Assembly: GCF_024346355.1 (NCBI RefSeq)
Contig: NZ_JAGQCU010000002.1
Location: 124,001-188,000, forward strand
Direction of reading: 5' to 3'
Source of the DNA: Cyanobium sp. ATX 6A2
GTDB taxonomy: Bacteria > Cyanobacteriota > Cyanobacteriia > PCC-6307 > Cyanobiaceae
Length of the DNA stretch: 64,000 nt
Below the pieces are notes generated by a model that was given only the letters and a program-made list of their open reading frames with translations, had not been told where the DNA came from and did no database searches. Position 1 is the stretch's first letter; every line of letters starts with the position of its first letter. Both the position numbers and the translations under genes were made by a program. Below are positions 39,352 to 54,507 of this stretch, piece by piece.

Positions 39352-39918
39352 TCACAGGCCTGGTTGGCGGTAGAGATCAGCCAACTCCGGGCTGTTGAGC
39401 AGGTTCAGCAGTCGTTGGAGCTTGCGTCAGTTGTTGGGGCTGGGGTCGAGCTCGAAGGCAAGCCGGCCTCGATCAAGTCGAGCTCGGATTCGATCCAGGC
39501 GAGAATTGCGTTGTCGTTCCTCAGCTGCTCGGTCTCTTTCTCGAGCTGTTTCCCGCGCCTCCGCGATGCTTCGATCCTCATCTCGACGTCGGGATCGCGA
39601 CGCCAGTTGAGCATCGACAAGAACGAGCGGAAGCGAGAGCGCGATGAGCCACACGCCCCATTGCTGGGGGAGGTTGATTCGGCGGTGGGGGACGTTGATG
39701 TGGTCATAAGAGGAGAACAGGGCAATCAGGGCAACGACGGCGCCAAACAGGGTTTCCACGACGGCCTGGATGTCGAAGCCCAGCCAGTGCCAGGCCTTGG
39801 GAACGGCTCTCTCGAGAGCTGCTGCCGAATCCACACCCCCAGATGATCCATCCACCCTAAGAAGCCCATCCCCCGCAAGCCAAGCCCAGCTTAGTACAAG
39901 CGTACTGCTTGCGTGCAT
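39352..39918 (-). pseudogene. Two-helix membrane protein with Arg/Glu coiled coil, interrupted by an in-frame TGA
   Basis: The frame from 39918 to the TGA at 39427-39429 encodes 163 aa: two hydrophobic segments (VVETLFGAVVALIALFSSYDHI; WGVWLIALSLPLVLVDAQL) and then a charged coiled coil (AEARETARERDRAAEERQRNSRLDRIRARLDRG), ending DPSPNN. After the TGA the same frame continues RKLQRLLNLLNSPELADLY to a stop at 39352. This reads as the natural C-terminus of such proteins (DPSxxNR...), and TGA is one transition from CGA (Arg). No known domain is found. It sits between rfbD and rfbB. Confidence 0.55.
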
Positions 39919-41085
39919 CTGCCTTCCCTGTCTCTGACCCGCTCAACACCCTCAATGGCTGCTGTCCCTGCCGCGATGTCTGTCTCTCCAACTCACTCCC
40001 CCACCGCCGCCGAGCTGCTGGCCGGCCGCCGCCGCGTGCTGGTGACCGGCGGCGCCGGCTTCATCGGTGGGGCGCTGGTGCGGCGGTTGCTGGCGGAGAG
40101 CGAGGCGCTGGTGTTCAACCTCGACAAGTGCGGCTACGCCAGCGACCTCACCAGCATCGAGGCGCTGCCCCAGGCGACAGAGCGCCACCAGCTGCTGCGG
40201 GTGGACCTGGCCGATGGCGAGGCCACGGCGGCGGCGGTGCGCCAGGCCGACCCGGACCTGGTGATGCACCTGGCGGCCGAGAGCCATGTGGACCGCTCGA
40301 TCGAGGGGCCGGGGGCGTTCATCGAGAGCAACGTGAGCGGCACCTTCCAGCTGCTGCAGGCGGTGCGGGCCCACTGGCAGGGGCTGGGCGCGGAGCGGCG
40401 CGAGCATTTCCGCTTCCACCACATCAGCACCGATGAGGTGTTCGGCTCGCTGGGGGCGGAGGGGCGCTTCTCGGAGACCACCCCCTACGACCCGCGCAGC
40501 CCCTATTCGGCCAGCAAGGCGGCCAGCGACCACCTGGTGAACGCCTGGCACCACACCTACGGCCTGCCGGTGGTGCTCACCAACTGCAGCAACAACTACG
40601 GCCCCTGGCAGTTCCCCGAGAAGCTGATCCCGGTGGTGATCCTCAAGGCGGCGGCGGGCGAGCCGATCCCGCTCTACGGCGACGGCGGCAACGTGCGCGA
40701 CTGGCTGTATGTGGACGACCACGTGGACGCCCTGCTGCTGGCGGCCTGCCGCGGCCGGCTGGGCCAGAGCTACTGCGTGGGCGGCCATGGCGAGCGCACC
40801 AACAAGCAGGTGGTGGAGGCGATCTGCGCCCTGCTCGATGAGCTGCGCCCCGCCGGCGCCCCCCACGCGCGCCTGATCACGCCGGTCACGGACCGTCCGG
40901 GCCACGACCGCCGCTACGCCATCGATCCGGCCCGCATCAGCAGCGAACTGGGCTGGCAGCCGCGCCACAGCTTCGAGCAGGGGCTAGAGGCCACGGTGCG
41001 CTGGACCCTGGAGCACCAGGACTGGTGCGCCGAGGTGCGTGAGCGGGGCGGCTACAGCGGCGGGCGGCTGGGGCTGGTGGGGTAG
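39913..41085 (+). CDS. rfbB: dTDP-glucose 4,6-dehydratase RfbB (RmlB)
   Basis: RfbB is the second enzyme of the dTDP-rhamnose pathway. It has the NAD motif RVLVTGGAGFIGGALVRRLL, HLAAESHVDRSIEGP, HISTDEVFGSLG (TDE catalytic) and YSASKAASDHLV (YxxxK). NNYGPWQFPEKLIPVVI and YVDDHVDALLLA follow. The 390-aa length includes about 35 non-conserved N-terminal residues; internal ATGs at 39955 and 39976 are alternative starts. It completes the rfbA-C-D-B set. Confidence 0.94.
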   Translation: MHLPSLSLTRSTPSMAAVPAAMSVSPTHSPTAAELLAGRRRVLVTGGAGFIGGALVRRLLAESEALVFNLDKCGYASDLTSIEALPQATERHQLLRVDLADGEATAAAVRQADPDLVMHLAAESHVDRSIEGPGAFIESNVSGTFQLLQAVRAHWQGLGAERREHFRFHHISTDEVFGSLGAEGRFSETTPYDPRSPYSASKAASDHLVNAWHHTYGLPVVLTNCSNNYGPWQFPEKLIPVVILKAAAGEPIPLYGDGGNVRDWLYVDDHVDALLLAACRGRLGQSYCVGGHGERTNKQVVEAICALLDELRPAGAPHARLITPVTDRPGHDRRYAIDPARISSELGWQPRHSFEQGLEATVRWTLEHQDWCAEVRERGGYSGGRLGLVG

Positions 41086-41089
41086 GCGA

Positions 41090-41134
41090 TCACACCAGCC
41101 AGCCCACCAGGCGCGAGCGCAGGGCCATCAGGCG
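41090..41134 (-). pseudogene. Remnant of a glycosyltransferase 3' end (last 14 codons plus stop)
   Basis: On the minus strand this stretch reads RLMALRSRLVGWLV and a stop, identical in amino acids to the C-terminus of the glycosyltransferase at 41627-42433 but with three synonymous differences (TCG/TCC, CGC/CGT, GTG/GTC). It lies directly after rfbB and just downstream of the RHH-like gene. It is best read as the 3' end of a second, related glycosyltransferase gene otherwise lost. Confidence 0.7.
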
Positions 41135-41142
41135 AGTGCTGA

Positions 41143-41580
41143 TCACTCCGGCGTGCCGCGATCGGAGTCCGACTCGGTGAGGCGAGGGGTTTGCAGCGGA
41201 GAGCGATTGAGGGCCAACTCCAGCACGGTTTCCAGCCGAATCACCCGACTGTTGAGCTCATCGATGCGGCGCTGCTGCTCCTTCATCAGGCCGGCCATGG
41301 AAGCCGCACGGACTTCGGCCAGGGCGTCATCGAGCGCCGCTTCGGTGCGAGCGGTGCTGAGCTCCAGTTGCTTCAAAGCCGCTTCCAGAGCATCGGATTC
41401 TGCCTGCCGCTCCGAACCAGCGCTGGAGGCATAGGCAGCACCCGCTTCCCGGAAAAACTGCCCGAGCGAGAGGCCCAGGCTGCTGGCGCGATCGGTGTAG
41501 GTGGCTTTCTCCGTGGGCGTCATCAAGACGGCAACACGCTCCGTTGCGCGCTCACCTGCGGTTTTCGGGGCCGTCGCCAT
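41143..41580 (-). CDS. Small RHH/MobC-like protein with coiled coil
   Basis: The 145-aa protein has an N-terminal segment (ERVAVLMTPTEKATYTDRASSLGLSLGQFFREA) resembling the ribbon-helix-helix region of plasmid mobilisation (MobC) or CopG-like antitoxins. A long coiled coil follows (LEAALKQLELSTARTEAALDDALAEV..., RIDELNSRVIRLETVLELAL). No partner toxin or relaxase is adjacent. The GC and codon use differ from the flanking genes. It sits between a full glycosyltransferase and a remnant of another, suggesting an inserted gene. The assignment is by pattern only. Confidence 0.5.
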   Translation of the reverse strand: MATAPKTAGERATERVAVLMTPTEKATYTDRASSLGLSLGQFFREAGAAYASSAGSERQAESDALEAALKQLELSTARTEAALDDALAEVRAASMAGLMKEQQRRIDELNSRVIRLETVLELALNRSPLQTPRLTESDSDRGTPE

Positions 41581-41626
41581 CGGGTTTAAGCGCTGTGCAT
41601 GTGCTGCACATATTAAGCGAGGCCAG

Positions 41627-42433
41627 TCACACCAGCCAGCCGACCAGACGGGAGCGCAGGGCCATCAGGCGGGGGTAGTGGCGGGCGAAGGGGCGCAGGC
41701 CGAACTTGATGATCTCCGCCGCCTTGGCGGGCAGGTTGCGGGTGGGTTCGCGCAGGCGCAGGCGCAGTACGGCCCAGGTGGGCAGCTGGCTGGACACGCC
41801 GCCGAGGTTGTAGGCCACCACCGGCTCGCGCAGGTAGGCCACGCGGCTGAGGTCGGCGAGGGCCGAAGCCATCCAGCCGCGGCAGGCGCCCTGGGGCGCG
41901 TCGAGGCGGTAGGGGTGGGCGCGGGCCCAGTCGCCCTCCACCACCAGGCTCTGGTGGTTGGGCAGGTAGAACCACAGCCAGCGGCGCAGGCTGCGCACCG
42001 CCGGGTCCGGCACCAGCCAGGGCGGGCAGCGACTGGGCGGCACGGGGCAGACGCGGGCCTGGCCGAACACCACCCGTGGCGGGGTGCCCGTGCGGCTGAT
42101 GTGGGCCAGGGCGTGATCGAGGAGGCGCTGCAGGGCGTGGGGATGGAGCCAGTTGTCGCCGGAATTGAGGAACTGCACCCAGTGGCCGCGGCAGTGGGCG
42201 AGGCCGAGGTTCATGGCCGGGTAGATGCCGCGGGCCGGGTGATCGCGCACCAGCTCGAAGGGCGCCATGGCCTGGGGAGAAACGGGCTCATCGCTGCCAT
42301 CCACCACCACCACCTGCAGGGCTGCTGACACCTGCTGGCTGCGGATCGAGGCGAGGGTGCCGTCCAGCTCCTGGGGGTTGTTGCGGGTGAGCACGACGAT
42401 GCTCACCAGGGGCTGGGGTGAGGTGGCGCTCAT
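41627..42433 (-). CDS. Family 2 (GT-A) glycosyltransferase
   Basis: The 268-aa protein begins LVSIVVLTRNNPQELDGTLA, the GT2 N-terminal strand, with VVVVDGSDEPVS and the GIYPAMNLGLAHCRGHWVQFLNSGD segment. The latter is typical of WcaA-like colanic-acid/O-antigen transferases where the DxD is replaced by NSGD. No transmembrane segment is seen. It probably adds a sugar in the surface-polysaccharide pathway; donor and acceptor are unknown. Confidence 0.85.
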   Translation of the reverse strand: MSATSPQPLVSIVVLTRNNPQELDGTLASIRSQQVSAALQVVVVDGSDEPVSPQAMAPFELVRDHPARGIYPAMNLGLAHCRGHWVQFLNSGDNWLHPHALQRLLDHALAHISRTGTPPRVVFGQARVCPVPPSRCPPWLVPDPAVRSLRRWLWFYLPNHQSLVVEGDWARAHPYRLDAPQGACRGWMASALADLSRVAYLREPVVAYNLGGVSSQLPTWAVLRLRLREPTRNLPAKAAEIIKFGLRPFARHYPRLMALRSRLVGWLV

Positions 42434-42728
42434 GGGCTGGGGCTTCTTGAGTGAATGGCCATCTCAAAGGCGTAAAAATGTGCGGCTTTCAGGAGAATGG
42501 AGCTGGCGGTTTTTGGATCTAAAGGTGTGATTTTTGCCGACAATTCGTGACTGTCTGAATTGCCAAGTGCTGCCCTGTTCTGAATTTCGGCCATTGATAG
42601 CCTTCAAAGGCACTTGTCAACTGTGAAATTTAATATGCGGGCTTCGGGTACGCTGGTCTTGCTGTGTGTTGCTCGAGCACTCGCGGGTGGTTGAGCTCTT
42701 GAGATCACTTGCGTGGTAAGGAGGCCTT
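42434..42728. other. AT-rich intergenic region at the start of the low-GC segment
   Basis: No gene is supported in these 295 bases. Composition shifts here from the GC-rich flank to a distinctly AT-rich stretch that continues into the methyltransferase gene. It probably marks one edge of an acquired segment and holds a promoter for the downstream minus-strand glycosyltransferase. Confidence 0.4.
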
Positions 42729-43511
42729 TCACGCAATCTTCTTGAAGAGATAGTTTGGGTTTTTCATGACTACTTGATAATTTGAGTTGTGCTTGATTTC
42801 TTTCATTAGCTTCGAAAGGCCAAAGGGGTCGGCGTCAGATGAATCATCAAATAATATAAATCCACCGAGTTCTAAGCTCTTGTCTATATTTTTAAAGTCG
42901 CGCTTTGCAAATTCATAGGTATGATTTCCATCTATATAGGCAAATGCGATCTCGCCGCCGAGGATTGTTGTTCTTCCAAATATATCATTGGCCTTTGCAT
43001 GCTTTTGCCATAAGAGAAAAAACTCGTCAGATGTTTGCTCAACCGCGAAGGGCTTGTTGTCTGGAGAAAAGAATTCAATATTCCTGATGAATGATGACTT
43101 GACAAAGTTCCGATAATCTTTATGAGAGATCTGACTATTTCCTAAGTTTGGTCCATTTTCTGATCCCTCAAAGATCCACTTGTCGCAGCAGAAGATCTTG
43201 TTGTTCTTTCCGGCGATCTTAAGTAGGTAACTGATGACATTCGCAGAGAGGCCGCAGAAGCTCCCGATTTCTACAACGGGGACGCCTGATGGCAGATTCT
43301 CAATCGCAAAGCGCATGGCGTAGATATTGCCTTTTGTCAACATCCCTGCGTTTGCAAATGTAAGCCAATTTATATACTCATCTGAGATTGTTTTGGTTGT
43401 TAGCTGCTGTGCTCCTAGGTGAAGTAGTGTCTTGAGTCTGGCAATCATCGGTTTAGGTGATTTTGTTGCTTCTATCCTGCCGGGGTTCATCATTGCTTTC
43501 AAGCTCTGCAC
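42729..43511 (-). CDS. Class I SAM-dependent methyltransferase (AT-rich)
   Basis: The 260-aa protein has the SAM-binding motif VPVVEIGSFCGLSANVISYLL, then FCCDKWIF and FAYIDGNHTYEFAKRDFKNI, matching the Methyltransf_24/CmcI-like group that modifies secreted sugars. The last motif (ELGGFILFDDSSDADPFGL) is also typical. Codon use is markedly AT-rich compared with the window. GTG at 43511 directly follows the previous stop; ATG at 43493 (MMNPGRI) is an alternative start. Confidence 0.75.
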   Translation of the reverse strand: MQSLKAMMNPGRIEATKSPKPMIARLKTLLHLGAQQLTTKTISDEYINWLTFANAGMLTKGNIYAMRFAIENLPSGVPVVEIGSFCGLSANVISYLLKIAGKNNKIFCCDKWIFEGSENGPNLGNSQISHKDYRNFVKSSFIRNIEFFSPDNKPFAVEQTSDEFFLLWQKHAKANDIFGRTTILGGEIAFAYIDGNHTYEFAKRDFKNIDKSLELGGFILFDDSSDADPFGLSKLMKEIKHNSNYQVVMKNPNYLFKKIA

Positions 43512-44873
43512 TCATGGCCTTTGACTGTGCAGACTGTTCAGCACCTCTCGATAAAGCTCGGCATAGAGCCCGGCGATGCGGCCGGGGTTCCAGAGCTGCT
43601 CCGCGCGCTGGCGGGCCTGGCGTCCCAGGGCGGCTTGCCGCTCGGGGGTCTCCAGCACCCAGCGGATGCCGTGGGCGAGATCGGCGGGGTCGTAGGGCTC
43701 GGCGAGGTAGCCCGTGCGCTGGTGGTCCACCACATCGGGCAGGCCGGTGGCGTTGAAGGCCACCACGGGCACGCCGCAACTCTGGGCTTCGCTCGCAGTT
43801 TGGCCAAATGCCTCCATCAGGGAGGGCACCACCATCACATCGGCGGCGGCGTAGAGCAGCGCCAGTGCTTGGTCATCATGGAGGGCGCCCACGTAGTGCA
43901 CCGGCAGGCCTAGGTGAGGCGGGGCGTTTGGCTCCGATTGGCCGAATACCACTGCCTCGAGGCCGGGAACGCTTCGGGTGAGTCGGCGCAAAGCGGCAAC
44001 CAGCAGATCCCAGCCCTTGCCCGGGTCGCGGCTGCCGCCTACAGCCCCGAAGAGCACTAAGGGCGGCTCTGCCGGCAGGGCGAACAGCTGCCTGGCTAGC
44101 GCCTGAGGCACGGGTCGATAGATCTCTGTAGGCAGCGGATGGGGGATCACCCGTACGGGCCAGTGCCCCAGCAGCGCTGAGCGTTGCACACACTCGGACA
44201 GCCAAGTGCTTGGACATACGAGCTGAATCGGTTGCTTCCAGTGGCGGCGTTTCCGCTGCCAGCACCAGCGGTCGAGATCCAGACCTTGATGGCCTTGCGG
44301 CCTGTTGGATGCAAGGTAGCCCTGCCGGTAGCGGTGATCTTCGAGGCCGTTGGGATGATGTTCACTACCGCAGAAGGCCCAGCTGTCGTGAAGGGACCAG
44401 ACCAAAGCTTTCTTTAGTCGACCGATAGCTTCGATCGATAGCATTTCTCCGTTTACCCAATGTAGATGGAGCAAGTCAGAGTAATTGCTATTTAGTTCTC
44501 GGTCCAGTCGACAGGGTAGAAATGAAGGGGAATGGAGAATTTGATTCGTTGTGCTCTGAAGCCTTGAGAAGAGCAGGCCAGCAGATGATCGTGCAAGGGG
44601 AAGTGCTGCACTCTTCCCTGTTGGGCCATGGATAGTGGAGCAATCGCACAGCTTCCGGCCAACTCGCATCTGGCTGCGGATCTGAGGAAAACTGGTTCCT
44701 TGTAAACAGGTGTGTATGCGGTGCGCAGCGCGAGCAGCGCCACCTTGCTTGTCAGAGAAAGAGACATGGCACACTCGTATTGTGGCGCGCTCTGTAGATG
44801 GGCTGTCAGAGGTCTCTTCTGGAAGGCCCATCTGATTTATAACTTGGGAGAGTTCAGCTTTGGATTTCCTCAT
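43512..44873 (-). CDS. Family 4 (GT-B) glycosyltransferase
   Basis: The 453-aa protein starts its fold at IRVCHVSFSDKQGGAARAAHRI, a WcaC-like N-terminus found in polysaccharide glycosyltransferases. The donor domain has LVLFGAVGGSRDPGKGWDLL and VPSLMEAFGQTASEAQSCGVPVVAF, the E-x7-E motif. The first half has more AT-rich codons than the second, suggesting a mosaic origin. It overlaps the upstream glycosyltransferase by 4 bp (ATGA). Confidence 0.85.
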   Translation of the reverse strand: MRKSKAELSQVINQMGLPEETSDSPSTERATIRVCHVSFSDKQGGAARAAHRIHTCLQGTSFPQIRSQMRVGRKLCDCSTIHGPTGKSAALPLARSSAGLLFSRLQSTTNQILHSPSFLPCRLDRELNSNYSDLLHLHWVNGEMLSIEAIGRLKKALVWSLHDSWAFCGSEHHPNGLEDHRYRQGYLASNRPQGHQGLDLDRWCWQRKRRHWKQPIQLVCPSTWLSECVQRSALLGHWPVRVIPHPLPTEIYRPVPQALARQLFALPAEPPLVLFGAVGGSRDPGKGWDLLVAALRRLTRSVPGLEAVVFGQSEPNAPPHLGLPVHYVGALHDDQALALLYAAADVMVVPSLMEAFGQTASEAQSCGVPVVAFNATGLPDVVDHQRTGYLAEPYDPADLAHGIRWVLETPERQAALGRQARQRAEQLWNPGRIAGLYAELYREVLNSLHSQRP

Positions 44874-45820
44874 GCTATCCCTAGCCTCGCCAAGAGGCGA
44901 TGCCTGATCCGGCGCAAAAGGCTGGGTTTGAAGATCTGGTAAAAAGTAAAACTGTCTGCAGCCGCATCTCTTAAGGCAATAGTTGGGCTCTTCATCTGAA
45001 GAATTCGTGACTGATGACGTGAGATGGCTTCTGAATAGGTGCGATACCCTGAAGGCGCAATTGCGGTATGGGTGGCGTCTTCGCTAAATCCAATGTTGAA
45101 AACTAAGTTCTCGTTTGGCAGGGCTGTCAGACCTCCGTTAACGAGGCAGGTAAAGGTCCACCGATAAGCCCATGAGTCCGGTTTCCCTTCGCGGAGCAGC
45201 CGGTCCCAGATGGCTGCCCAGTAGCGCGCTTCGCTGGGGTTCTCAAAGATTGATCCGAGCAGGCCGGAAGCCTTCAGGGCGGGCCACTGGTGGAGTTCGC
45301 CGTCGTAATGGCGCCAGCAGCGGCGCCAGGTGGCCCAGCCCCAGCAGTGGTTGTAGCGGCTGAAGTAATAGCTGCCGTCGCCACGCCAACGGCCATTCTG
45401 GAAGTTGTTGCCGCTGATGCACCACACCCGCGTGTCGTGGCGGTAGCGCTCCAGGAGGGTGACGCAGTAAACGAAAAAGGCGGGGTGGGGTACACAGTCG
45501 TCCTCTAGGACGATGCCCTCCTCCACCTGCTCGAAGAACCAGCTGATGGCGCGGCTGACGCCTAGGCGGCAACCCTGGTTGGTGTCGGAATAGAGCCGCT
45601 CGATCCGGCAGGGCCAATCGATCTCGTTGTCGATCACGGTTCTTGTGGCTGCCACCTTCTCGGCTTCGCCGGGGCGCTCAGGGTTGGGGCCATCGCAGGC
45701 GACGAACAGCCGCGTGGGTGCCACGGGACGGATGGCATCGATCACCTGGCGCAGGGTGTTGGGGCGGCGCCAGGCGATCAGGAGAAGGGGGGTGTCGGCG
45801 GGGGTGGGATCCAAAGCCAT
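44870..45820 (-). CDS. Glycosyltransferase (HlpA/GT2-like)
   Basis: The 316-aa protein begins TPLLLIAWRRPNTLRQVIDAI with VACDGPNPERPGE, LYSDTNQGCRLGVSRAISWFF and VLEDDCVPHPAFFVYCVTLL (EDD metal site), then WGWATWRRCW. This pattern fits the hemolytic-protein-HlpA-like sugar transferase group. It lies 3 bp downstream of the vapC-like gene and shares its first 45 codons with a broken copy at 46463-46594. Confidence 0.8.
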   Translation of the reverse strand: MALDPTPADTPLLLIAWRRPNTLRQVIDAIRPVAPTRLFVACDGPNPERPGEAEKVAATRTVIDNEIDWPCRIERLYSDTNQGCRLGVSRAISWFFEQVEEGIVLEDDCVPHPAFFVYCVTLLERYRHDTRVWCISGNNFQNGRWRGDGSYYFSRYNHCWGWATWRRCWRHYDGELHQWPALKASGLLGSIFENPSEARYWAAIWDRLLREGKPDSWAYRWTFTCLVNGGLTALPNENLVFNIGFSEDATHTAIAPSGYRTYSEAISRHQSRILQMKSPTIALRDAAADSFTFYQIFKPSLLRRIRHRLLARLGIA

Positions 45821-45823
45821 CGG

Positions 45824-46174
45824 TTAACTGCGCGCCATCAGGTCCACGTCGTGGAGATCCTTGAAATCGGCATCCATCGTGTACAGCCTGGCTTGATGGA
45901 CACGGGCGTTGGTCAGGATGATGCTGTCAGCCATGGGCAGCCGCAGCGTGTGGCTGAGTTGCGCAGCGGCGATGGCGAGGCGGCTGTCGAGATCGTCCAG
46001 CATGCCGCGTTGCATGGCTGCAGCAGCCTGGATGGCCTGGTCCTCGCTGTGTTCCCGCAGCACCCACTTGAATACTTCGGTTTGGAGCATCGCCAGAAAC
46101 CGATCAGGCAGTGGGCCGTTTGTGAACACCTCGATCCAACGAGACGAGTCCACCACGGCTCTTTGCGGATTCAC
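45824..46174 (-). CDS. vapC: PIN-domain (VapC-type) toxin with probable internal deletion
   Basis: The 116-aa protein starts at a GTG (46174) overlapping the antitoxin stop (GTGA). The PIN acidic residues are present: Asp in AVVDSSRWIEVF, Glu in TEVFKWVLREH, Asp in LPMADSII and Asp in YTMDADF. Compared with the usual length of about 130-135 aa, the stretch between RFLAMLQ and TEVFKWV is short, lacking the second beta strand; the loss is in frame. VapC toxins cut tRNA or rRNA. Activity is doubtful. Confidence 0.75.
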   Translation of the reverse strand: MNPQRAVVDSSRWIEVFTNGPLPDRFLAMLQTEVFKWVLREHSEDQAIQAAAAMQRGMLDDLDSRLAIAAAQLSHTLRLPMADSIILTNARVHQARLYTMDADFKDLHDVDLMARS

Positions 46175-46373
46175 AGGCGGTGGGGTTCGCGCTGGAAGGT
46201 GTTGTCTCCATCAAAAACCCGCGCAATGCAGCAGGGGGCTGGTTTGGCACCAGTTCGATCCGCCCCGGCAGCGCCAGCACCTGCGGCTGCTGGCCTGGAG
46301 CGAGGCCGAACTGCTCGCGCACCTGCTTGGGGATGACGACCTGGTACTTGGGGGAGACAGTTGTCAGATCCAT
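46171..46373 (-). pseudogene. vapB: AbrB/MazE-type antitoxin with a frameshift
   Basis: It begins MDLTTVSPKYQVVIPKQVRE, the swapped-hairpin AbrB DNA-binding fold, and continues to AALRGF. The expected C-terminus (DGDNTFQREPHRL and TGA at 46171-46173) is in another frame, shifted at a run of five A on the plus strand (46213-46217). Six would restore it. As it stands the frame runs to 46104 (89 aa) with an unrelated tail, losing the toxin-binding C-terminus and the GTGA coupling to vapC. Confidence 0.7.
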
Positions 46374-46462
46374 GGCCCCAACGTAAGCCGGAAGCCAGGT
46401 GGATGCCGCTTTCCGGCTTCAGGAGCGGTTTGCCCAACCCGCGGGTTGGGGAAGGCGTCGAG

Positions 46463-46594
46463 GTGTTTGGGATTGGGGCCGTCGCAGGCGACGGACGGCT
46501 GGGTGGGCGCCACGGGACGGATTGCGTTAATCACCTGCTGCAGGGTGTGGGGGCGGTGCCAGGCGATAAGCAGGAGGGTGGCGGTGGCTGGGTC
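46463..46594 (-). pseudogene. N-terminal fragment of a glycosyltransferase
   Basis: The minus strand reads DPATATLLLIAWHRPHTLQQ and on through VINAIRPVAPTQPSVACDGPNPKH. This is an evident paralogue of the first 45 residues of the glycosyltransferase at 44870-45820, after which similarity stops. DNA similarity is visible over about 130 bp (compare 45683-45813). It lies upstream of the vapBC-like pair. Confidence 0.75.
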
Positions 46595-46706
46595 ACGCGA
46601 GCGGGTGACGGTGAGCCGTACGTGCAGACAGAATAAGGGTGGTACTGGGCGCCAGGATTGCCAAAGACGCATGAAATCAAGAGGCGCCGATGGACCGATG
46701 TGCGGA

Positions 46707-47387
46707 TTAGTCTTCAGACCTTTCCTTGTATCCAATAGCATAGATAGATGTGGCTCGCCTCGACTCCATGTCTAGCCCAGGCTGAAAATCCCGCAGCCTG
46801 CATTTGCTAAATCCTGCGCTTCTCATGATATTAATAAGATTCTCTTGGTCGAACATGTAGGCGTGTTCGCCTCTTCCCATGTATGCAATGTAATTCACTT
46901 GATCGATAAGGCTGCCTGTGTTGCTTAGCCCTGGGGTGTAAGCCTTCTCCACTTCCAGTAGGTTTTTTCCTGCAAGGTAGGCTTCCATGTAACGGCGAGC
47001 ATTCGGAACGCATACGGAGAAATCGCCGCCAGGCTTTAGAGCTCGATGGCATTTTCTGAGGAGCCTGCGCAAATCATCGAAGGGAATATGTTCCAAGACG
47101 TGTGAGCTGTAGATGCTGTCTAGTGAGTTGTTTGGGAACGGCAGCCCTGCCCGCAAATCCCATGTCAAATCACAGCCTAAACTACGATCTAGTGTTATCC
47201 AGCCTCCGGCTCCAACTTTGTTGCCTGCGCCAATTTCCAGTCGAATTGGTGCCGTTCTTCTAAGGATAGAAGATACCTTTATTCTGGTTTGAATGGATTT
47301 TATCTTGAGGAAAGGCCATTTCCCGGCTCGCTTTGCTGCCGTGCTTATCTCGTTGAGCAAACTGTATCTTGGCTGACCTGCATCCAT
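46707..47387 (-). CDS. Class I SAM-dependent methyltransferase
   Basis: The 226-aa protein has the SAM-binding motif RLEIGAGNKVGAGGWITLD, then SIYSSHVLEHIPFDDLRRLLRKCHRALKPGG (split here as motif II/III), typical of Methyltransf_11-type enzymes in polysaccharide loci. The sequence is AT-rich. It follows the FkbM-type gene by 3 bp on the same strand. Confidence 0.8.
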   Translation of the reverse strand: MDAGQPRYSLLNEISTAAKRAGKWPFLKIKSIQTRIKVSSILRRTAPIRLEIGAGNKVGAGGWITLDRSLGCDLTWDLRAGLPFPNNSLDSIYSSHVLEHIPFDDLRRLLRKCHRALKPGGDFSVCVPNARRYMEAYLAGKNLLEVEKAYTPGLSNTGSLIDQVNYIAYMGRGEHAYMFDQENLINIMRSAGFSKCRLRDFQPGLDMESRRATSIYAIGYKERSED

Positions 47388-47390
47388 GCG

Positions 47391-48242
47391 TCACACTTCC
47401 TCCTGCCCTTGGCTGTGATCACTGCCTAGAATGGCGGCTATGTTCTGGTAGCGAAAAACAGGAAGATCCCCATCGTGAACTGCTAGGAGCCTTCCCTTCG
47501 GAAGTATTCTAAATAAGCTGTAGTCGCCAAGAATGAATCTAAAGTCATTCAAAAATGTGCGACTCGGAATCATCGTCTCGTTAAACTCGAATTGAATCGC
47601 GCCTATTTTCCGTGAGGCAATCATTTCGCGAAACCCTTGGAGTACTTTAAGCTCATGTCCCTCGACGTCAACTTTTAGCAGATCAATAAACCTAATTCTC
47701 TGTTGCCTGCAAAACTCGTCACCAGTCGTCACTTCTACTTTAAACGTCTTTTCCTGCTGCCCGTGGACTTCAGTAATGACGCCGGCTTCAAGAGAGGCGT
47801 GGGTGGACCCATACGATGAATCGGCGTAATCATGCATCCTTGCAGCCCCTCGCTGATTGGATAATCCGATGTTGAACGTTTTTATCGCTGGAATCTCCCG
47901 TACTCGTGCGGCAAGTGTCGTGAAGGTTTCCGGAGAGGGTTCAAAGGCAAAGAGCCGATAGGGTGTTTCGATCTTGAGGCTTGTGACCATCAGTGCCCAG
48001 TTGCCTACGTTGGCACCGACGTCGAAGACGACTGCGTCTGTAGGTGGCAGGTCTGCTGGCCTTCTTTCTTTGTAAGTCTTAAGGACTGAACGGGCAAATC
48101 CCTTTTCGCCCGATATTCTGAAATCCTGGTAGTTAAGAATCCCCTGCCCTCTCAGGCCGGCTAAGACCAGTGCTTTGTTGAATTTCGCCAGCCATGGTTT
48201 GCCAAAAACAGAGGCATAGACGTCAAGCAATACTGTAATCAC
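47391..48242 (-). CDS. FkbM-family methyltransferase
   Basis: The 283-aa protein has AVVFDVGANVGNWALMV (SAM motif), YRLFAFEPSPETFTTLAARV and FIDLLKVDVEGHELKVLQGF, the signature of FkbM methyltransferases that O-methylate sugars. The GTG at 48242 overlaps the flippase stop (GTGA); the longer frame upstream to 48638 is out of phase with the flippase and lacks homology. It is AT-rich like its neighbours. Confidence 0.85.
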   Translation of the reverse strand: MITVLLDVYASVFGKPWLAKFNKALVLAGLRGQGILNYQDFRISGEKGFARSVLKTYKERRPADLPPTDAVVFDVGANVGNWALMVTSLKIETPYRLFAFEPSPETFTTLAARVREIPAIKTFNIGLSNQRGAARMHDYADSSYGSTHASLEAGVITEVHGQQEKTFKVEVTTGDEFCRQQRIRFIDLLKVDVEGHELKVLQGFREMIASRKIGAIQFEFNETMIPSRTFLNDFRFILGDYSLFRILPKGRLLAVHDGDLPVFRYQNIAAILGSDHSQGQEEV

Positions 48243-49528
48243 CTGGCTTTTTGGCCTACAAGCTGGAATGGGAAGGCAAGCTTTAGGGCGTTTGCCCTTG
48301 TTTCCTCGGACCATAGTGCCATCACGGCAAAGGTTGCCAAGCCATAAGAAACAAAAGTCGCAATGGCTGCACCATGGAAGCCGTAACTGGGGATCAGTGC
48401 TAAATTCAAGAGGATGTTTGCTGAGCATCCAGCCGCAGTTCTTGCTGCAGAGACCTTTTCCAGCCCTGCTTTCTGAAGCCAGGATGAGCTTGCAGTGCCT
48501 GTTGAAACGGCAAATGAAGCTAGCCCTAGCCAGATCATCGCATTTTGAGCAGGCTGAAACCGTGGCCCAAAGATCAACGGAATTAGAGCCGATAAAGCTG
48601 TGCTTGTTACTAGTGCCATCCCTACACCGAGAATCCATGCGGCCTTGTACAGGCGTTTGAGTGCTGTGTCCGTATCAAAGTTGCCCCTACCGTGGCCAAT
48701 TCTTGGTAGAAACGTTGCAGACAGGATTACTGGGAGGAAGTAGAGGCTTTCGGCTGTCTTTACGGCTACTGAGTACTGTCCTACTTCTTCAGGCCCGCGC
48801 AACCATTCCAGCATGACTTGGTCACTCTTGACATACAGCATCACCGACAATCCGGCCAGGAGCAACGGCCAGCCACGTTTCAGTAAAACGCGCGCTGTAG
48901 GCCATGATACCTCATGCAAGGTAGTAACGAATCTGTAGCTGTTGGCGAATCTGCTGAGAACAACAGCTCGTGCAGCCATTGCCAGGGTCTGCACGCCTCC
49001 AAACGCCATCAGCGGAGCTTGGCTCAGCAACGCAACGACTGAAACACACGCTCCAGCGATGGTCTGTGCAAGCCCTGCTTTTGCGACGCGGGTGCCTTGC
49101 TGCCGGTTCAGCAGCTCCACCTCAAACACCTCTGCGGAGCTGAACAGATTGCCCAGCACCGCCAGGCCCATCAGGCCGGCCAGCACCGGATCCCGCGCCG
49201 CCCAGGCAAAGGGCACCAGCACCAGGGCAATGACAGCCGTGCCCAGCAGTTCGATCCAGAAGGCGGTGGCCACCAGACCGGGTCGTGGCGGTTCCTCGCA
49301 CAGCAGGATCGCCAGGCTGCCCTTCACGCCCAGGCTCCCCAGCGGGCTGAGCACGCCCACCAGGGCGGCCACATAGCTGAGGGTGCCGAGCTTTTCCGGC
49401 CCCAGATAGCGCGCCGTCCAGCCGCCGATGCCGATCGACACCGCCAGCCTGAACACCTGGCTGCCCACCTGGCTGATCAGGGACGTGCGCAGGCGCTCGG
49501 GTTTGGCTTGAGGCTGCCCCACGGCCAT
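48239..49528 (-). CDS. Polysaccharide flippase (Wzx/MATE-like)
   Basis: This 429-aa membrane protein has about 12 hydrophobic helices. It begins (after a short charged N-terminus) LISQVGSQVFRLAVSIGIGG with ARYLGPEKLGTLSYVAAL, typical of the polysaccharide-exporter/oligosaccharide-flippase family. It would move lipid-linked oligosaccharide units across the plasma membrane. It leads the minus-strand run flippase-FkbM-methyltransferase. Base composition drifts from GC-rich at the 5' end to AT-rich at the 3' end. Confidence 0.85.
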   Translation of the reverse strand: MAVGQPQAKPERLRTSLISQVGSQVFRLAVSIGIGGWTARYLGPEKLGTLSYVAALVGVLSPLGSLGVKGSLAILLCEEPPRPGLVATAFWIELLGTAVIALVLVPFAWAARDPVLAGLMGLAVLGNLFSSAEVFEVELLNRQQGTRVAKAGLAQTIAGACVSVVALLSQAPLMAFGGVQTLAMAARAVVLSRFANSYRFVTTLHEVSWPTARVLLKRGWPLLLAGLSVMLYVKSDQVMLEWLRGPEEVGQYSVAVKTAESLYFLPVILSATFLPRIGHGRGNFDTDTALKRLYKAAWILGVGMALVTSTALSALIPLIFGPRFQPAQNAMIWLGLASFAVSTGTASSSWLQKAGLEKVSAARTAAGCSANILLNLALIPSYGFHGAAIATFVSYGLATFAVMALWSEETRANALKLAFPFQLVGQKAR

Positions 49529-49607
49529 GGCTCAGTGGTGATTTGTCACCAGCCGGGGCACGGGCGGGCTCGCGGTTTCAGGGTAGGGCTCTGTGGGGAC
49601 CGGCGGC

Positions 49608-50351
49608 TCAGGCTGGATCGGGCCCTGGCCAGCGGCCATCCACCAGGAACTGCTCCCTCTTCAGGGTGATCACCTGGCTCAGGCCGAAGGATGCGAAGGT
49701 CACGCCGTCGGGCCGGATTTCCAGCGTCCAGTCCTGGAAATCGAAGGGAGTGCTGCTGAACGCCCAGACAGACAGAACGCCCACGCAGGGCGCCTCCTGG
49801 GGGGCACGAGCCGAGAGCACTTCGAAGGCCTCGATCCCCAGCTGCCGCATCACCCGGCCCAACCGCTGACTGGCGGCATAGCTGCAGGGGTCAGTCACCG
49901 CCTCCAACGCGCTCTCCTCCAGGCAGTCCTGCAGCTGCAGACCCCGCTGCACCTGGATCTCCACGTGAAACGAGGTCTGCTGACGGTGGATCGTCTTGCC
50001 CGGTGGCAGCGGAGCGCCTTCCAGCAGTCGTAACGCATGGAAGGCTTGTTCGGCCAGCACCGTGGTGAGTGCCCGCGCCCCGTAGACCATCTCTCGCTGA
50101 TCCTGTGGCGTGAAACGCGAGCCGCTGCGCAGCGGTGGATAGCGAAACGGGGTGATGAGCAGACGGTGCTGGGCCACCCCCGCCGGCAGCGGCGGTTTCA
50201 CCGTTTCGATCAGGGCCTCCAGCCTGGCCTGGTCGGCCAGGGTTTCGGTCCAGCGCTCGCTGGCATGATAGCCCTGGCGGTCGGTGATGCGCACCACCCC
50301 GCCAGCCATTGGCTGGATGTGGGGCAGCAGAAACGTCTCCGGATCAGGCAC
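49608..50351 (-). CDS. RES-domain toxin (NAD-degrading TA toxin)
   Basis: The 247-aa protein contains GGVVRITDRQGYHASERWTET and the region HRLLITPFRYPPLRSGSRF, matching the RES domain with its conserved Arg, Tyr and Glu residues. RES toxins hydrolyse NAD+ and are paired with Xre/MbcA antitoxins. The GTG at 50351 (MPDPETFLL) overlaps the antitoxin stop by 8 bp. No frameshift or missing segment is evident. Confidence 0.75.
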   Translation of the reverse strand: MPDPETFLLPHIQPMAGGVVRITDRQGYHASERWTETLADQARLEALIETVKPPLPAGVAQHRLLITPFRYPPLRSGSRFTPQDQREMVYGARALTTVLAEQAFHALRLLEGAPLPPGKTIHRQQTSFHVEIQVQRGLQLQDCLEESALEAVTDPCSYAASQRLGRVMRQLGIEAFEVLSARAPQEAPCVGVLSVWAFSSTPFDFQDWTLEIRPDGVTFASFGLSQVITLKREQFLVDGRWPGPDPA

Positions 50352-50709
50352 GCAGGGCGTCCAGGTAGGCGGCCACGCGCGCCAGCCCCTCCACAGAGGC
50401 AAGCAACTGGCGCGGCGCCTGCTGCGCCAGGTGTCGGTTCGGCTGCATCAGCCAGTGCTGCATCAGCTCGGTATCCGATCCCATCAGCGCATCCAGGCTG
50501 CGCGCCACCCGTAGAAACAACAGACCGAGCTCTCCTTCCTTGCTGGCGGGATCCAGGCCGCTGCGTTCCAGGCTGGTGCGGTGCCGCCCCACGATCACAC
50601 CAAGCTCGTCCTTGGAAATGCCCAGTTCAGCGGCTGCCTTGATGCAGGCATCGGCCACCAGCCGGGCATCGGCAGCCGAGGTGTCAGCACCGTGCTCCAG
50701 AACTGCCAT
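50344..50709 (-). CDS. Xre/MbcA/ParS-type antitoxin
   Basis: The 121-aa protein has an N-terminal helical DNA-binding region (LVADACIKAAAELGISKDELGVIVG, HTH-like). Its C-terminal ParS/MbcA toxin-binding region (MQHWLMQPNRHLAQQAPRQL and VEGLARVAAYLDAL) is the usual partner of RES toxins. Order (antitoxin first) and overlap are canonical. Divergent from the amidase gene. Confidence 0.75.
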   Translation of the reverse strand: MAVLEHGADTSAADARLVADACIKAAAELGISKDELGVIVGRHRTSLERSGLDPASKEGELGLLFLRVARSLDALMGSDTELMQHWLMQPNRHLAQQAPRQLLASVEGLARVAAYLDALRA

Positions 50710-50874
50710 TCAGCCTCGGTATTTGTGCGATTGCACGCAGGCTAGGCGCATCTGAGCGTTTGCGCGGTGCCCTTGGGCGTTCCTTTCCGGCCTTGCCAGC
50801 AGGCGTTGCCGCGAAACTGCGGCATCCTGCCTGGCATCGCCTGTTCCCAGCCCGCAGTCACCTGCGCCCCGTCG

Positions 50875-51819
50875 ATGCCGGCCACCATCTACCTGCACTG
50901 GGCCGCCACCCCCTATTCCTGGGTGCGCTCCGGGCTCTATCACACGATCATCGGCGGAGATGGCACCGTCCACCGCCTGCACGCTTACAGCATCGATCTG
51001 CCGGCCCACACCTGGCGCCGCAACAGCAATTCGATCGCCCTCTCCTGCGCCTGCATGGGCGGCCGGCCCGATCCCTGGACGATCCCGCCCACCGAGGTGC
51101 AGCTCGATGCGCTGTGCCGTGAGGCTGCCAGCGTGGCCAGCAGCTGGGGCTGGCGCGAGGGCGACATCACCATCCAGCGGGTGATGACCCACGCCGAGGC
51201 GGCGTCAAACCGCGACGGCCGCCGGATGCACGACAACTACGGTCCGGTGATCTGGGGCGGCACCGGCGAGCGCTGGGATTTCCTGCAGCTCAGCAAGGGC
51301 GGCCCGCCCACTGGCGGCGAGGAGCTGCGGGGGCGCATCCGGCGGTTTCTGGCCGCGCCGGATGGGCCTGCGGGCAGTGGTGCTGGCAAGCCGGGGTCGG
51401 CGTCGAGCGCCGCCGGGGCAGCCCCTGGCGCTCCAGTCCGCCTCGAATTCCGCCGCGCCACCACCATGAGCGCCCGGGGCGAAACCCTGGCGGTGGAGCT
51501 TGACGCCAACGGCTCCTCCTGGGCCCTGGCCGCCGATCTGCTGGCGCTCTACGAGATCCCTTACGAATGGGACGCCAGCCGCCGCCGGGTGCTGGTGGGC
51601 AGCCTCGATGTGGTGCCCACCTTCCGCGACGATCAGGTGCAGCCCGGCGTCGGCTGGCCCCTGTTCGAGATGACCCTGCAGAACGGCAACGCGCCGGTAG
51701 TGCTGCGCGGCATCCTGCGCGACAACCGCGCCTGGTGCAGGGTGCTCGAATTCGCCGAGGAGTTCGGCATCAGCGCCACCTTCGAGCCGTTCACGCTGCT
51801 GGAGCGGCGGGGGGGATGA
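50875..51819 (+). CDS. N-acetylmuramoyl-L-alanine amidase-like protein with unknown C-terminal domain
   Basis: The ATG at 50875 gives MPATIYLHWAATPYSWVRSG. YHTIIGGDGTVHR and RVMTHAEAAS contain the histidines expected of zinc amidases (amidase_2/PGRP-like). The frame upstream to 50767 lacks homology. After a Gly/Ser linker, a C-terminal domain of about 110 residues (AVELDANGSSWALAADLLAL, VLVGSLDVVPTFRDD) is not recognised. No signal peptide is seen. The stop overlaps the following glycosyltransferase start (ATGA). Confidence 0.65.
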   Translation: MPATIYLHWAATPYSWVRSGLYHTIIGGDGTVHRLHAYSIDLPAHTWRRNSNSIALSCACMGGRPDPWTIPPTEVQLDALCREAASVASSWGWREGDITIQRVMTHAEAASNRDGRRMHDNYGPVIWGGTGERWDFLQLSKGGPPTGGEELRGRIRRFLAAPDGPAGSGAGKPGSASSAAGAAPGAPVRLEFRRATTMSARGETLAVELDANGSSWALAADLLALYEIPYEWDASRRRVLVGSLDVVPTFRDDQVQPGVGWPLFEMTLQNGNAPVVLRGILRDNRAWCRVLEFAEEFGISATFEPFTLLERRGG

Positions 51820-52583
51820 ACGGGCCGCCGCTGGTTTCGGTGGTGATGCCCTGCCGCAACGCAGGCGCCTTCATCGGCCAGGCGATCGCCTCGGTGCAGG
51901 CCCAGACGGAATCCCGCTGGGAGCTGTTGATCGTGGACGACCACTCCAGCGATGCCTCCCCCGAGCTGATCGCCGAGGCGGCCCGCGCTGATGCCCGCAT
52001 CCAGCCGCGCCTGCTGCCGTTTGCGGTGGGGGCGGCCACCGCCCGCAACCTGGCCATCGAGCGGGCCCGCGGCCGCTACATCGCCTTCCTCGATGCCGAC
52101 GACCGCTGGCTGCCAGCGAAGCTGGAGCAGCAACTGGCTTGCTTTCGGGCCCACCCGGGCGCCGCGATCGTGTGTTCCTCGTATTACACGGTGCGGGCGA
52201 TCGATGAACCGCTTCAGCACGTGGTGCAGGCACCGCAGCGCATCAGCTTCCGCGAGATCGTGCGCACCAACGCCATCTGCACCAGCACAGCCGTGGTGGA
52301 CACCGCGGTGGTGGGGAGGTGCTACCTGCCCCGGCTCACGATCACCCACGACTGGGGCCTGTGGCTGCAGATCTTTGCTCGTGATCCGGAGCAAGTGGTC
52401 TGCTGTGGTGTGTGCGCCCCCTTGGCTGTACGGGTGCGTCATTCCCGCTCGCTGTCCGCCAATCCGTTGCGCACAACCCTCGACAGCTTCCTCACCCTTC
52501 GCTGCTACAGCGGCCTCTCCACCCCCGCGGTGCTGCTGGCCCTCGCCCACCATTCCCTGGCCGCCCTGCGCAAGCGGCTCTGA
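51816..52583 (+). CDS. Family 2 (GT-A) glycosyltransferase
   Basis: The 255-aa protein begins PLVSVVMPCRNAGAFIGQAI with IVDDHSSDASPELI, ATARNLAIERARGRYIAFLD and DADDRWLP (DxD-like metal site), a standard GT2 set. HDWGLWLQ near residue 180 is the usual acceptor-side motif. It starts within the amidase stop (ATGA) and is followed 8 bp later by the epimerase, so the three are co-transcribed. Confidence 0.87.
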   Translation: MNGPPLVSVVMPCRNAGAFIGQAIASVQAQTESRWELLIVDDHSSDASPELIAEAARADARIQPRLLPFAVGAATARNLAIERARGRYIAFLDADDRWLPAKLEQQLACFRAHPGAAIVCSSYYTVRAIDEPLQHVVQAPQRISFREIVRTNAICTSTAVVDTAVVGRCYLPRLTITHDWGLWLQIFARDPEQVVCCGVCAPLAVRVRHSRSLSANPLRTTLDSFLTLRCYSGLSTPAVLLALAHHSLAALRKRL

Positions 52584-52591
52584 GCTCCGCC

Positions 52592-53500
52592 ATGGCCGCC
52601 CGCATCGCCATCACCGGGGCCTCCGGCTTTGTGGGCCGGGCCCTGGTGGCGGCCCTTTCGCCCCACCACACCGTGTTCCCGGTGCCCCGTGCTCTGCTGG
52701 CCGCCGAGGAGTCGCCCGCTGCCCTGGAGCGCTTCGCGCCCACCCACCTGGTGCACGCCGCCGCCATCGCCCACCGCCGCCCGCCGCGCGGTGCCGCCGA
52801 GCGCCGCGAGCTGCAGCGGGTGAATGTGGAGCTGGCCGCCAGTACGGCCCTCCTGGCTGCCCGGCTGGGAGTGCGGCGGCTGCTGGTGCTCAGCTCCATC
52901 GGCGTGCACGGCGCCGCCACCGCCCACGGCCAGGCGATCACGGAAGCCAGCCCCCTGCAGCCGGCCAACGCCTACGCCCGCTCCAAGCTGGAGGCCGAAG
53001 ATCGCGTGCGCACCGCCCTGGAGGGCACCGCCACCGGCTGCACGATCCTGCGGCCGGCGCTGGTCTACGGCCCCGGCGCCCCCGGCAACCTGGCCGCCTT
53101 CAGCCGCTGGGTGGATGCCGGCCTGCCCCTGCCTCTGGCCGCCGTGGCCAACCGGCGCAGCCTCATCGCCCTGGCCAACCTGGTGGACCTGATCGCCACC
53201 GCCCTGCTCGCCGAGGCCGCCGCCGGCCGCACCTACGTGGCCGCCGACGCCGAAACCATCGCCACCCCCGAGCTGATCCGCCTGATCGCCCGCGTGCGCG
53301 GCCGTCCTGCCCGCCTCTTTCCCCTGCCGCCGCCGGTGCTGGCCGCCGCCGGCCGCCTGCCCCTGCTCGGCCCGAAGCTGCGCCAGCTCAGCGGCAACCT
53401 GGTGGTTCACAGCGCCCTGGTGCGCCGCGAGCTGGGCTGGCGCCAGCCCCTGGCCCAGCGCGCCGCCCTCGAGGCCGCCTTCGCTTCCCAGCCCCGCTGA
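52592..53500 (+). CDS. NAD-dependent epimerase/dehydratase (WbpP/GalE-like SDR)
   Basis: The 302-aa extended SDR has RIAITGASGFVGRALVAAL, HAAAIAHRRP, LLVLSSIGVHG and NAYARSKLEAED (YxxxK), then LRPALVYGPGAPGNLAAF. Sugar specificity cannot be read; UDP-GlcNAc/UDP-Glc 4-epimerase or a 4-keto-reductase acting with the following WecA-like protein are both possible. Confidence 0.8.
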   Translation: MAARIAITGASGFVGRALVAALSPHHTVFPVPRALLAAEESPAALERFAPTHLVHAAAIAHRRPPRGAAERRELQRVNVELAASTALLAARLGVRRLLVLSSIGVHGAATAHGQAITEASPLQPANAYARSKLEAEDRVRTALEGTATGCTILRPALVYGPGAPGNLAAFSRWVDAGLPLPLAAVANRRSLIALANLVDLIATALLAEAAAGRTYVAADAETIATPELIRLIARVRGRPARLFPLPPPVLAAAGRLPLLGPKLRQLSGNLVVHSALVRRELGWRQPLAQRAALEAAFASQPR

Positions 53501-53509
53501 CCGCCGCCG

Positions 53510-54472
53510 ATGGCCCCGCTCCTGCTCACCACCGCGGCGGCCCTGCTCAGCTGGGCGCTGCTGGCCCTGCTGCTGCCCCAGCTGCGCCGCCGCCTGCCCG
53601 ATCAGCCCAACGCCCGCAGTTCCCACCAGCGCCCCACCCCCCGCGGCGGCGGTGTGGTGTTCGCCCTGGTGGGCGCCGCCTTCGCCCTGCCCCTGGGCAG
53701 CGCCATGCCCGCCCTCTGCCTGCCCCTGGCCGGCGTCGGCCTGCTCGACGACCGCCGCTCCCTCTCCCCCGCCCTGCGCCTGGCGGCCCAGCTGGCCACC
53801 GCCCTGGTGCTGCTGGCCGCGAGTTCCTGGGCCGGCACGGGGTGGCTGCTGGCTGCGCCGCTGGCCCTGGCGGTGGTGGCCCTGATCAACCTCACCAACT
53901 TCATGGACGGCCTCGATGGCCTGGTGGCCGGCTGCCTGCTGGTGCTGCTGGCCGCCGCCGCAACGCCGCTGGCGGGGGCCGGCCAGCCTGCCCTCTGGCC
54001 CCTGGTGGGCGCCCTGCTCGGCTTCCTGCCCTGGAACTGGAGTCCGGCGCGGCTGTTCATGGGTGATGCCGGCAGCACCTTCCTCGGCGCCGTGTTCGCC
54101 GGCGCCCTGCTGCAGGCCCCCGGCTGGCGCGATGCCCTGGCCCTGCTGCTGGTGGCCACTCCCCTGCTGGCCGATTCCGGCCTCTGCCTGCTGCGCCGCC
54201 TGCTGGCCCGCCAGCCCCTGTGGCAAGCCCACCGCCTGCACCTCTACCAGCGTCTGCAGCAGGCCGGTTGGAGCCACGCCCGCGTGGCCGGCCTCTACAG
54301 CGCCGCCACCGCCGCCCTCGCCCTGGCCCAGCGCGCCGGCGGCTGGCCCTGGCTGCTGCCCCTCGCCGCCGCCGTGGTGCTGATCGGCGTGGGGCTCGAT
54401 CGCCGCGTGGCGGTGCCGTTCGCCGTGGCGTCTACGGTGACTTTCAACTCGCAGCCGCCGCAGTGGCGCTGA
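53510..54472 (+). CDS. WecA/WbpL-like undecaprenyl-phosphate sugar-1-phosphate transferase
   Basis: The 320-aa polytopic protein contains DQPNARSSHQRPTPRGGG, GLLDDRRSLSP (DD metal site), LINLTNFMDGLDGL (D-x-F/M-N/D-GLDG) and LFMGDAGSTFLG, the full MraY/WecA signature. It starts lipid-linked polysaccharide synthesis by loading a sugar phosphate onto undecaprenyl phosphate. It stands between the SDR and the WbpM-like dehydratase, the same trio as in Pseudomonas-type O-antigen loci. Confidence 0.88.
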   Translation: MAPLLLTTAAALLSWALLALLLPQLRRRLPDQPNARSSHQRPTPRGGGVVFALVGAAFALPLGSAMPALCLPLAGVGLLDDRRSLSPALRLAAQLATALVLLAASSWAGTGWLLAAPLALAVVALINLTNFMDGLDGLVAGCLLVLLAAAATPLAGAGQPALWPLVGALLGFLPWNWSPARLFMGDAGSTFLGAVFAGALLQAPGWRDALALLLVATPLLADSGLCLLRRLLARQPLWQAHRLHLYQRLQQAGWSHARVAGLYSAATAALALAQRAGGWPWLLPLAAAVVLIGVGLDRRVAVPFAVASTVTFNSQPPQWR

Positions 54473-54507
54473 GGTTTCGCTGGCCGTTCATCGGCGGCAT
54501 CCCGCTG

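Follow-up and report, generated by a model that had tools for sequence, protein, structure and literature searches.

How does a small cassette without a recombinase of its own come to lie between two copies of the end of a host gene? The question is raised by a stretch of 64,000 nucleotides from Cyanobium sp. ATX 6A2 (here called the window), in which the 3' end of a glycosyltransferase gene flanks a ribbon-helix-helix-like (RHH-like) gene on both sides. Toxin-antitoxin modules consist of two genes and hold no enzyme for moving, and a recurrent scar in which the cassette lies between copies of a host gene terminus while the gene stays intact would reveal their route into the chromosome and provide a signature that can be counted. 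The scar hints that cassettes enter without breaking the target gene. Picocyanobacteria are rich in toxin-antitoxin genes (PMC12413379), and the question is therefore testable there.

A transferase end on both sides of a fused two-gene unit

The locus comprised the following features.

39913-41085, plus strand: dTDP-glucose 4,6-dehydratase-like gene and conserved left neighbour (family match), which we take to be rmlB from its family membership
41090-41134, minus strand: remnant of the transferase 3' end comprising its last 14 codons and the stop, 4 nt past the rmlB stop
41143-41580, minus strand: RHH-like (NikA-like) gene of 145 aa, in which both genes of a mobile unit are joined in frame (open reading frame, profile score and unit alignment)
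41599-41611, no strand: perfect 13-nt palindrome ATGTGCTGCACAT directly upstream of the RHH-like gene, probable operator (sequence and conserved position in the unit alignment)
41627-41671, minus strand: second repeat copy, the 3' end of the intact transferase (repeat search and codon comparison)
41627-42433, minus strand: complete family 2 glycosyltransferase gene (family match)

The two 45-nt copies start 537 nt apart and share 42 of 45 bases (93%). The three differences fall 0, 0 and 3 at codon positions 1, 2 and 3, and both copies encode the identical peptide RLMALRSRLVGWLV followed by the stop. A preliminary description of this DNA had reported that the terminal 14 codons of the transferase, with its stop, recur at 41090-41134 with synonymous differences only and with an RHH-like gene in between, and it was exact in its coordinates, in the nature of the differences and in the gene that it placed there. 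Its derivation of the repeat from the transferase 3' end also held. Relatives of the transferase with 41-46% identity finish in a similar peptide (full-gene tails ending in YPLAMSLKSRLIGFIY and YPHLMRARAAWMGWRY), so the repeat is transferase sequence and, as judged by these comparisons, the genuine end of this transferase family and not a dispersed element. A widespread noncoding element, the origin that the preliminary description had set against its own, or a chance match is scarcely credible. The 45-nt pattern with up to 3 mismatches was present at only 2 places in the own genome and 3 in 13 genomes of the genus with 0 for the reversed control, and a dispersed-repeat origin was rejected on these counts. 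The repeat moreover encodes a conserved transferase end, and when the flanks of the RHH-like gene were compared the pair scored 37.5, far above the slid controls in the window, where 208 positions slid along the 64 kb gave a single flank repeat of 20 or more (65.5, the one around vapBC described below).

The small gene between the repeats belongs to a unit found in 22 of 400 family genomes at different loci, and the 18 named unit loci were from Cyanobium, Synechococcus or uncultured cyanobacteria. In viral contigs, 46 candidate stretches were examined and no relative was encoded in them. In relatives the unit is a two-gene operon with a probable operator, and its RHH-like first gene, predicted to bind DNA, is followed in another frame by a second gene for a 69-aa coiled-coil protein. 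The two open reading frames overlap by 4 nt (ATGA) in G193 (Cruz-8D1), and in the window and G004 (Cyanobium sp. CH-040) both genes lie in one frame after a deletion. In-frame joins arose in at least three ways (window/G004, G207, and G187 with a stop; window 41143-41580, L083 7157-7609, L084 5895-6236), suggesting that the two proteins of the unit may act together. Comparison of the fused gene between the window and G004 gave a dN of 0.016 and a dS of 0.092, values that would agree with purifying selection. The window protein scored 24.2 bits against the NikA-like ribbon-helix-helix family (PF21983, cut-off 27) and the relative in G245 scored 30.6. A monomer model (pLDDT 81, pTM 0.38) was mostly one long helix, with helices at 8-18, 22-34 and 39-126 and no strand formed; the ribbon-helix-helix strand forms only in the dimer. 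Sequence search against solved structures resulted in weak or designed-protein matches only, the second gene matched no toxin family, and neither PADLOC nor PHROGs returned a useful match to the unit.

The unit is conserved from the palindrome, a predicted and probable operator, through the second stop, and in the unit alignment the flanking sequence differs between loci. The conserved edge near the operator lies at about 41617, and in the window 9 nt separate the unit from the transferase stop and 8 nt separate it from the tail remnant. Between the repeats the RHH-like gene was the sole family-matched open reading frame and no integrase was found. The traits of an insertion sequence were looked for as well, and the unit has neither inverted ends (the edges share the operator) nor a fixed duplication length (repeats of 43-196 nt). 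Separately, a short noncoding palindrome (around ACACCACATCTGGTGT) is repeated next to several units, in the flanks of L092, L093 and L088, and is possibly a miniature element.

The locus in related genomes

In G011, G010 and G008 a gene named secA by eye follows rmlB almost directly, and the rmlB-secA interval is therefore a variable island. This interval (41085-56317 in the window) is absent in those three genomes and has other contents in G002, G004 and G009. In G002 and G009 a minus-strand gene of the transferase island ends 3 to about 10 nt past the rmlB stop, and the copy at 41090 therefore occupies the expected end of a single ancestral transferase. This placement bears on the claim of the preliminary description that another transferase gene formerly had its end at this place and that the small gene took the place of most of it. 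That claim was not borne out, as the single ancestral gene would end at 41090 and the repeats hug the edges of the mobile unit, and a second transferase gene is not required by the data.

The reading that we prefer, at a probability of about 0.6, is that insertion of the mobile unit duplicated the last 45 bases of the transferase with the complete gene kept, and that the locus belongs to a wider group of cases in these cyanobacteria in which a duplicated gene terminus borders a toxin-antitoxin-type cassette and the gene is spared. The two-gene unit would have entered the 3' end of a transferase abutting rmlB and would have been fused later, and the insertion would have copied the last 45 bases, leaving the complete transferase (41627-42433) on one side and the 45-base tail (41090-41134) on the other.

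Evidence on the age of the arrangement came from CH-040, in which rmlB is followed by a MazE-like gene beside a decayed one, then by the 45-nt tail, by the unit (95.7% identical to that of the window over 484 nt), by 19 nt of the second tail and by another MazE-like/PIN pair. No transferase of the window kind was found in this genome even though both tails are present (19 nt of the second). Because CH-040 keeps both tails without the transferase, the tail-unit-tail arrangement is older than the split between the window species and CH-040. Additional MazE-like cassettes lie directly by rmlB and by the truncated second tail in CH-040 (L003 821-1390, 2062-2729), and the site thus keeps receiving cassettes. 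In G001 rmlB is followed by a MazE-like cassette and the start of the unit with no tail remnant, and the contig ends inside the unit.

The copies in CH-040 also allowed the three differences to be placed. At 41105 it is the window remnant that stands alone, and this difference looks derived there, while 41111 and 41114 set the intact gene apart from both remnants and these differences can belong to the side of the intact, presumably selected gene. Differences confined to synonymous sites are therefore weak evidence for a second gene and do not prove one.

An arrangement of tandem transferase genes or alleles, the second of which was reduced to its last 45 bases when the small gene arrived, would itself explain copies that differ synonymously only, and truncated second gene copies exist elsewhere in the own genome (L182, L183, with a different layout in which the head of a gene is repeated downstream of the intact gene). 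We nonetheless consider it unlikely. It needs two events where one suffices, its breakpoints would have to sit within 8-9 nt of both conserved unit edges, and one of the three differences looks derived in the remnant while two may lie in the intact gene. In addition, no second full-length member of this transferase exists among the 13 genus genomes, where the only full-length copy is that of the window. The preliminary description had proposed looking for genomes with an alternative allele; a full-length allele was absent from the 13 genus genomes and the best match in 400 family genomes was 46%. Likewise, no genome with this transferase and an empty site, lacking the unit, was found among the 13 genus or the 400 family genomes.

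Similar arrangements at other genes and their frequency

A second cassette in the window, a vapBC pair, is bracketed by the start of another transferase gene (44870-45820).

45667-45803, minus strand: copy A of the bracketing repeat, the 5' part of the intact transferase (repeat search)
45824-46373, minus strand: MazE-like antitoxin gene (46104-46373) and PIN toxin gene (45824-46174) (family match)
46456-46592, minus strand: copy B, a remnant 5' copy of the same transferase (79% over 137 nt)

The vapBC genes end 3 nt before the start of this transferase. Copy A shared 82-87% identity with the orthologues of G002, G004 and G009 and copy B 78-81%, and the two copies were 81% identical to each other, as would be expected for two alleles of species-level age with B decayed. 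The preliminary description saw in this duplication a mirror of the one around the RHH-like gene and a common mechanism at transferase ends. The layouts are indeed alike, but genes other than transferases are hosts as well. The own genome also holds a dense cluster of PIN toxin genes (C1 357-384 kb) and gave 28 PIN matches at an E value of 0.001, a threshold at which the vapC of the window was still missed.

Among the RHH units elsewhere G193 is the clearest case. A SpoU-family (trmH-like) gene has a second, 73-nt copy of its tail 1.65 kb further on, made up of its last 20 codons, the stop and about 11 nt, and between the tails lie Uma2-like, RHH-unit and MazE-like genes with an ABC permease-like gene beyond (named by eye). 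In G006 the repeat is a permease tail of 43 nt, with wider copies in G124 and G245 that belong to one permease-tail site, and in both G193 and G006 the repeats are hundreds of bases away from the unit. In the own genome a ParE/RelE tail of 62 nt surrounds MazE-like and PIN genes (L163, by eye).

Further loci were noted. At L186 2105-3784 in the own genome, another gene-sparing case read by eye, a sigma-factor-like gene (matched by Pfam in region 2 only), an antitoxin-like open reading frame and a PIN gene are followed by a 196-nt copy of the tail of the sigma-factor-like gene, and this locus adjoins a terminase-like open reading frame (named by eye). In several genera an ABC permease-like tail (ending in RLAMPILIERMSA and the stop) and the start of the next gene surround differing small cassettes (L092 5947-6970, L149 1501-2824, L148), and this tail site is likely a shared hot spot.

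The frequency of flank repeats was assessed with two flank lengths. Using 1200-nt flanks, a repeat scoring at least 20 was detected in 8 of 21 units as compared to 33 of 420 cross pairs (nominal p 0.0002) and to 34 of 224 positions slid along the same loci (p 0.014, which is nominal as the positions overlap). The other 13 units had no repeat at this score, and a 22nd unit (G352) was omitted because its upstream sequence was too short. Using 700-nt flanks, 3 of 21 units scored at least 20 (a set of 20 of the 21 units with measurable flanks plus G352, which was too short), as compared to 21 of 324 slid positions with 600-nt flanks. Gene ends were involved in five of the eight scoring units (window, G006, G124, G245 and G193), and the remaining ones were an antitoxin-like paralogue by eye (G410), a dispersed repeat (G188) and a marginal case (G302).

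Close direct repeats in the own genome were denser near toxin-antitoxin genes and numbered 47 pairs in 234 kb of toxin-antitoxin stretches (window included) as compared to 21 pairs in 437 kb of control stretches, two sets that hold different gene kinds and in which the overlapping L163 and L193 were counted twice. An automatic classifier assigned 31 of the 47 and 7 of the 21 pairs to gene termini, which is a rough guide as spurious open reading frames were counted. Pairs in the control stretches mostly resemble paralogous genes (open reading frames read for L168 6667 alone). Background repeats are frequent in these islands, and a common mechanism is plausible and short of proof. A 904-nt tandem duplication with 98% identity in an apparent transporter gene was also seen (L164 2836-5157).

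Possible routes of entry and known systems

Of 75 differences between repeat copies, counted over six repeats, 43 were at third codon positions, which exceeds one third (p 1.7e-5). The count omits the 75-nt PIN pair, which lies mostly outside a gene, and the G193 repeat, which has one second-position and one third-position difference by eye. With one copy selected the third-position share would be expected at about 0.43 (a rough estimate) and the excess is then weaker (p 0.009). These shares were weighed against neutral target duplication alone and disfavour it, the second comparison less strongly. The excess would fit copies that diverged as coding alleles, the donor and recipient versions of the gene end, and would partly fit one selected and one decaying copy too.

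For the preferred reading, in which insertion itself duplicated the gene end, the route we infer is a single crossover or a joining with homology on one side only. Most likely, DNA that brought the cassette together with a stretch of the gene end would have been joined homologously at one junction and by end joining at the other, or it would have come as a circle that integrated through a single crossover. Either route would produce terminus, cassette and terminus without a recombinase of the cassette's own, and insertions whose duplication spans a gene terminus would be retained because the gene survives. Tentatively, toxin-antitoxin-type cassettes without a recombinase may repeatedly colonise cyanobacterial chromosomes in this way, duplicating tens to about 200 bases of a host gene terminus so that the gene is spared, with direct repeats that could also permit later excision.

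Some integrative elements insert into gene 3' ends and restore them. They resemble the window in having a complete gene on one side, a tail remnant on the other and synonymous differences. On this model a transposase or integrase supplied in trans would have inserted the unit, leaving a long target duplication or using a gene end as attachment site, and the direct repeats on both sides and the restored gene end are as expected from such elements. We regard this explanation as improbable. Unlike these elements the unit has no integrase or other recombinase reading frame, no common terminal sequences were seen beside the repeats by eye, and several different host genes are involved with repeat lengths varying from 43 to 196 nt.

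A parallel to entry by one-sided homology is found in homology-facilitated illegitimate recombination and single-crossover integration. In PMC3240628, a circularised molecule lacking part of a gene end integrated in E. coli by a single crossover and left 14 sequenced clones with duplications of part of the gene, 109-950 bp long, with a duplication PCR product in 56 of 60 Lac-negative recombinants. The shared features are the one-sided homology and the partial duplication of the target gene end beside new DNA; however, the systems there are laboratory bacteria with long homology, whereas the window provides a natural scar alone. Our search of the open-access literature found no description of such a terminus-cassette-terminus scar.

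Toxin-antitoxin genes are described as mobile in PMC2701414. The unit resembles the type II modules treated there in being a small two-gene operon with a predicted DNA-binding first gene and a palindromic operator, in the ATGA overlap of 4 nt (G193), in its patchy distribution and in having vapBC and relBE neighbours. It is unlike them in that its second gene encodes a 69-aa coiled coil that matched no known toxin and that the window genes are fused. A parallel for vapBC comes from Sulfolobus islandicus, in which vapBC genes are bracketed by degenerate IS copies (PMC3718332). Both cases place toxin-antitoxin genes between repeats in variable regions, but the brackets in S. islandicus are IS remnants while those in Cyanobium are host gene ends.
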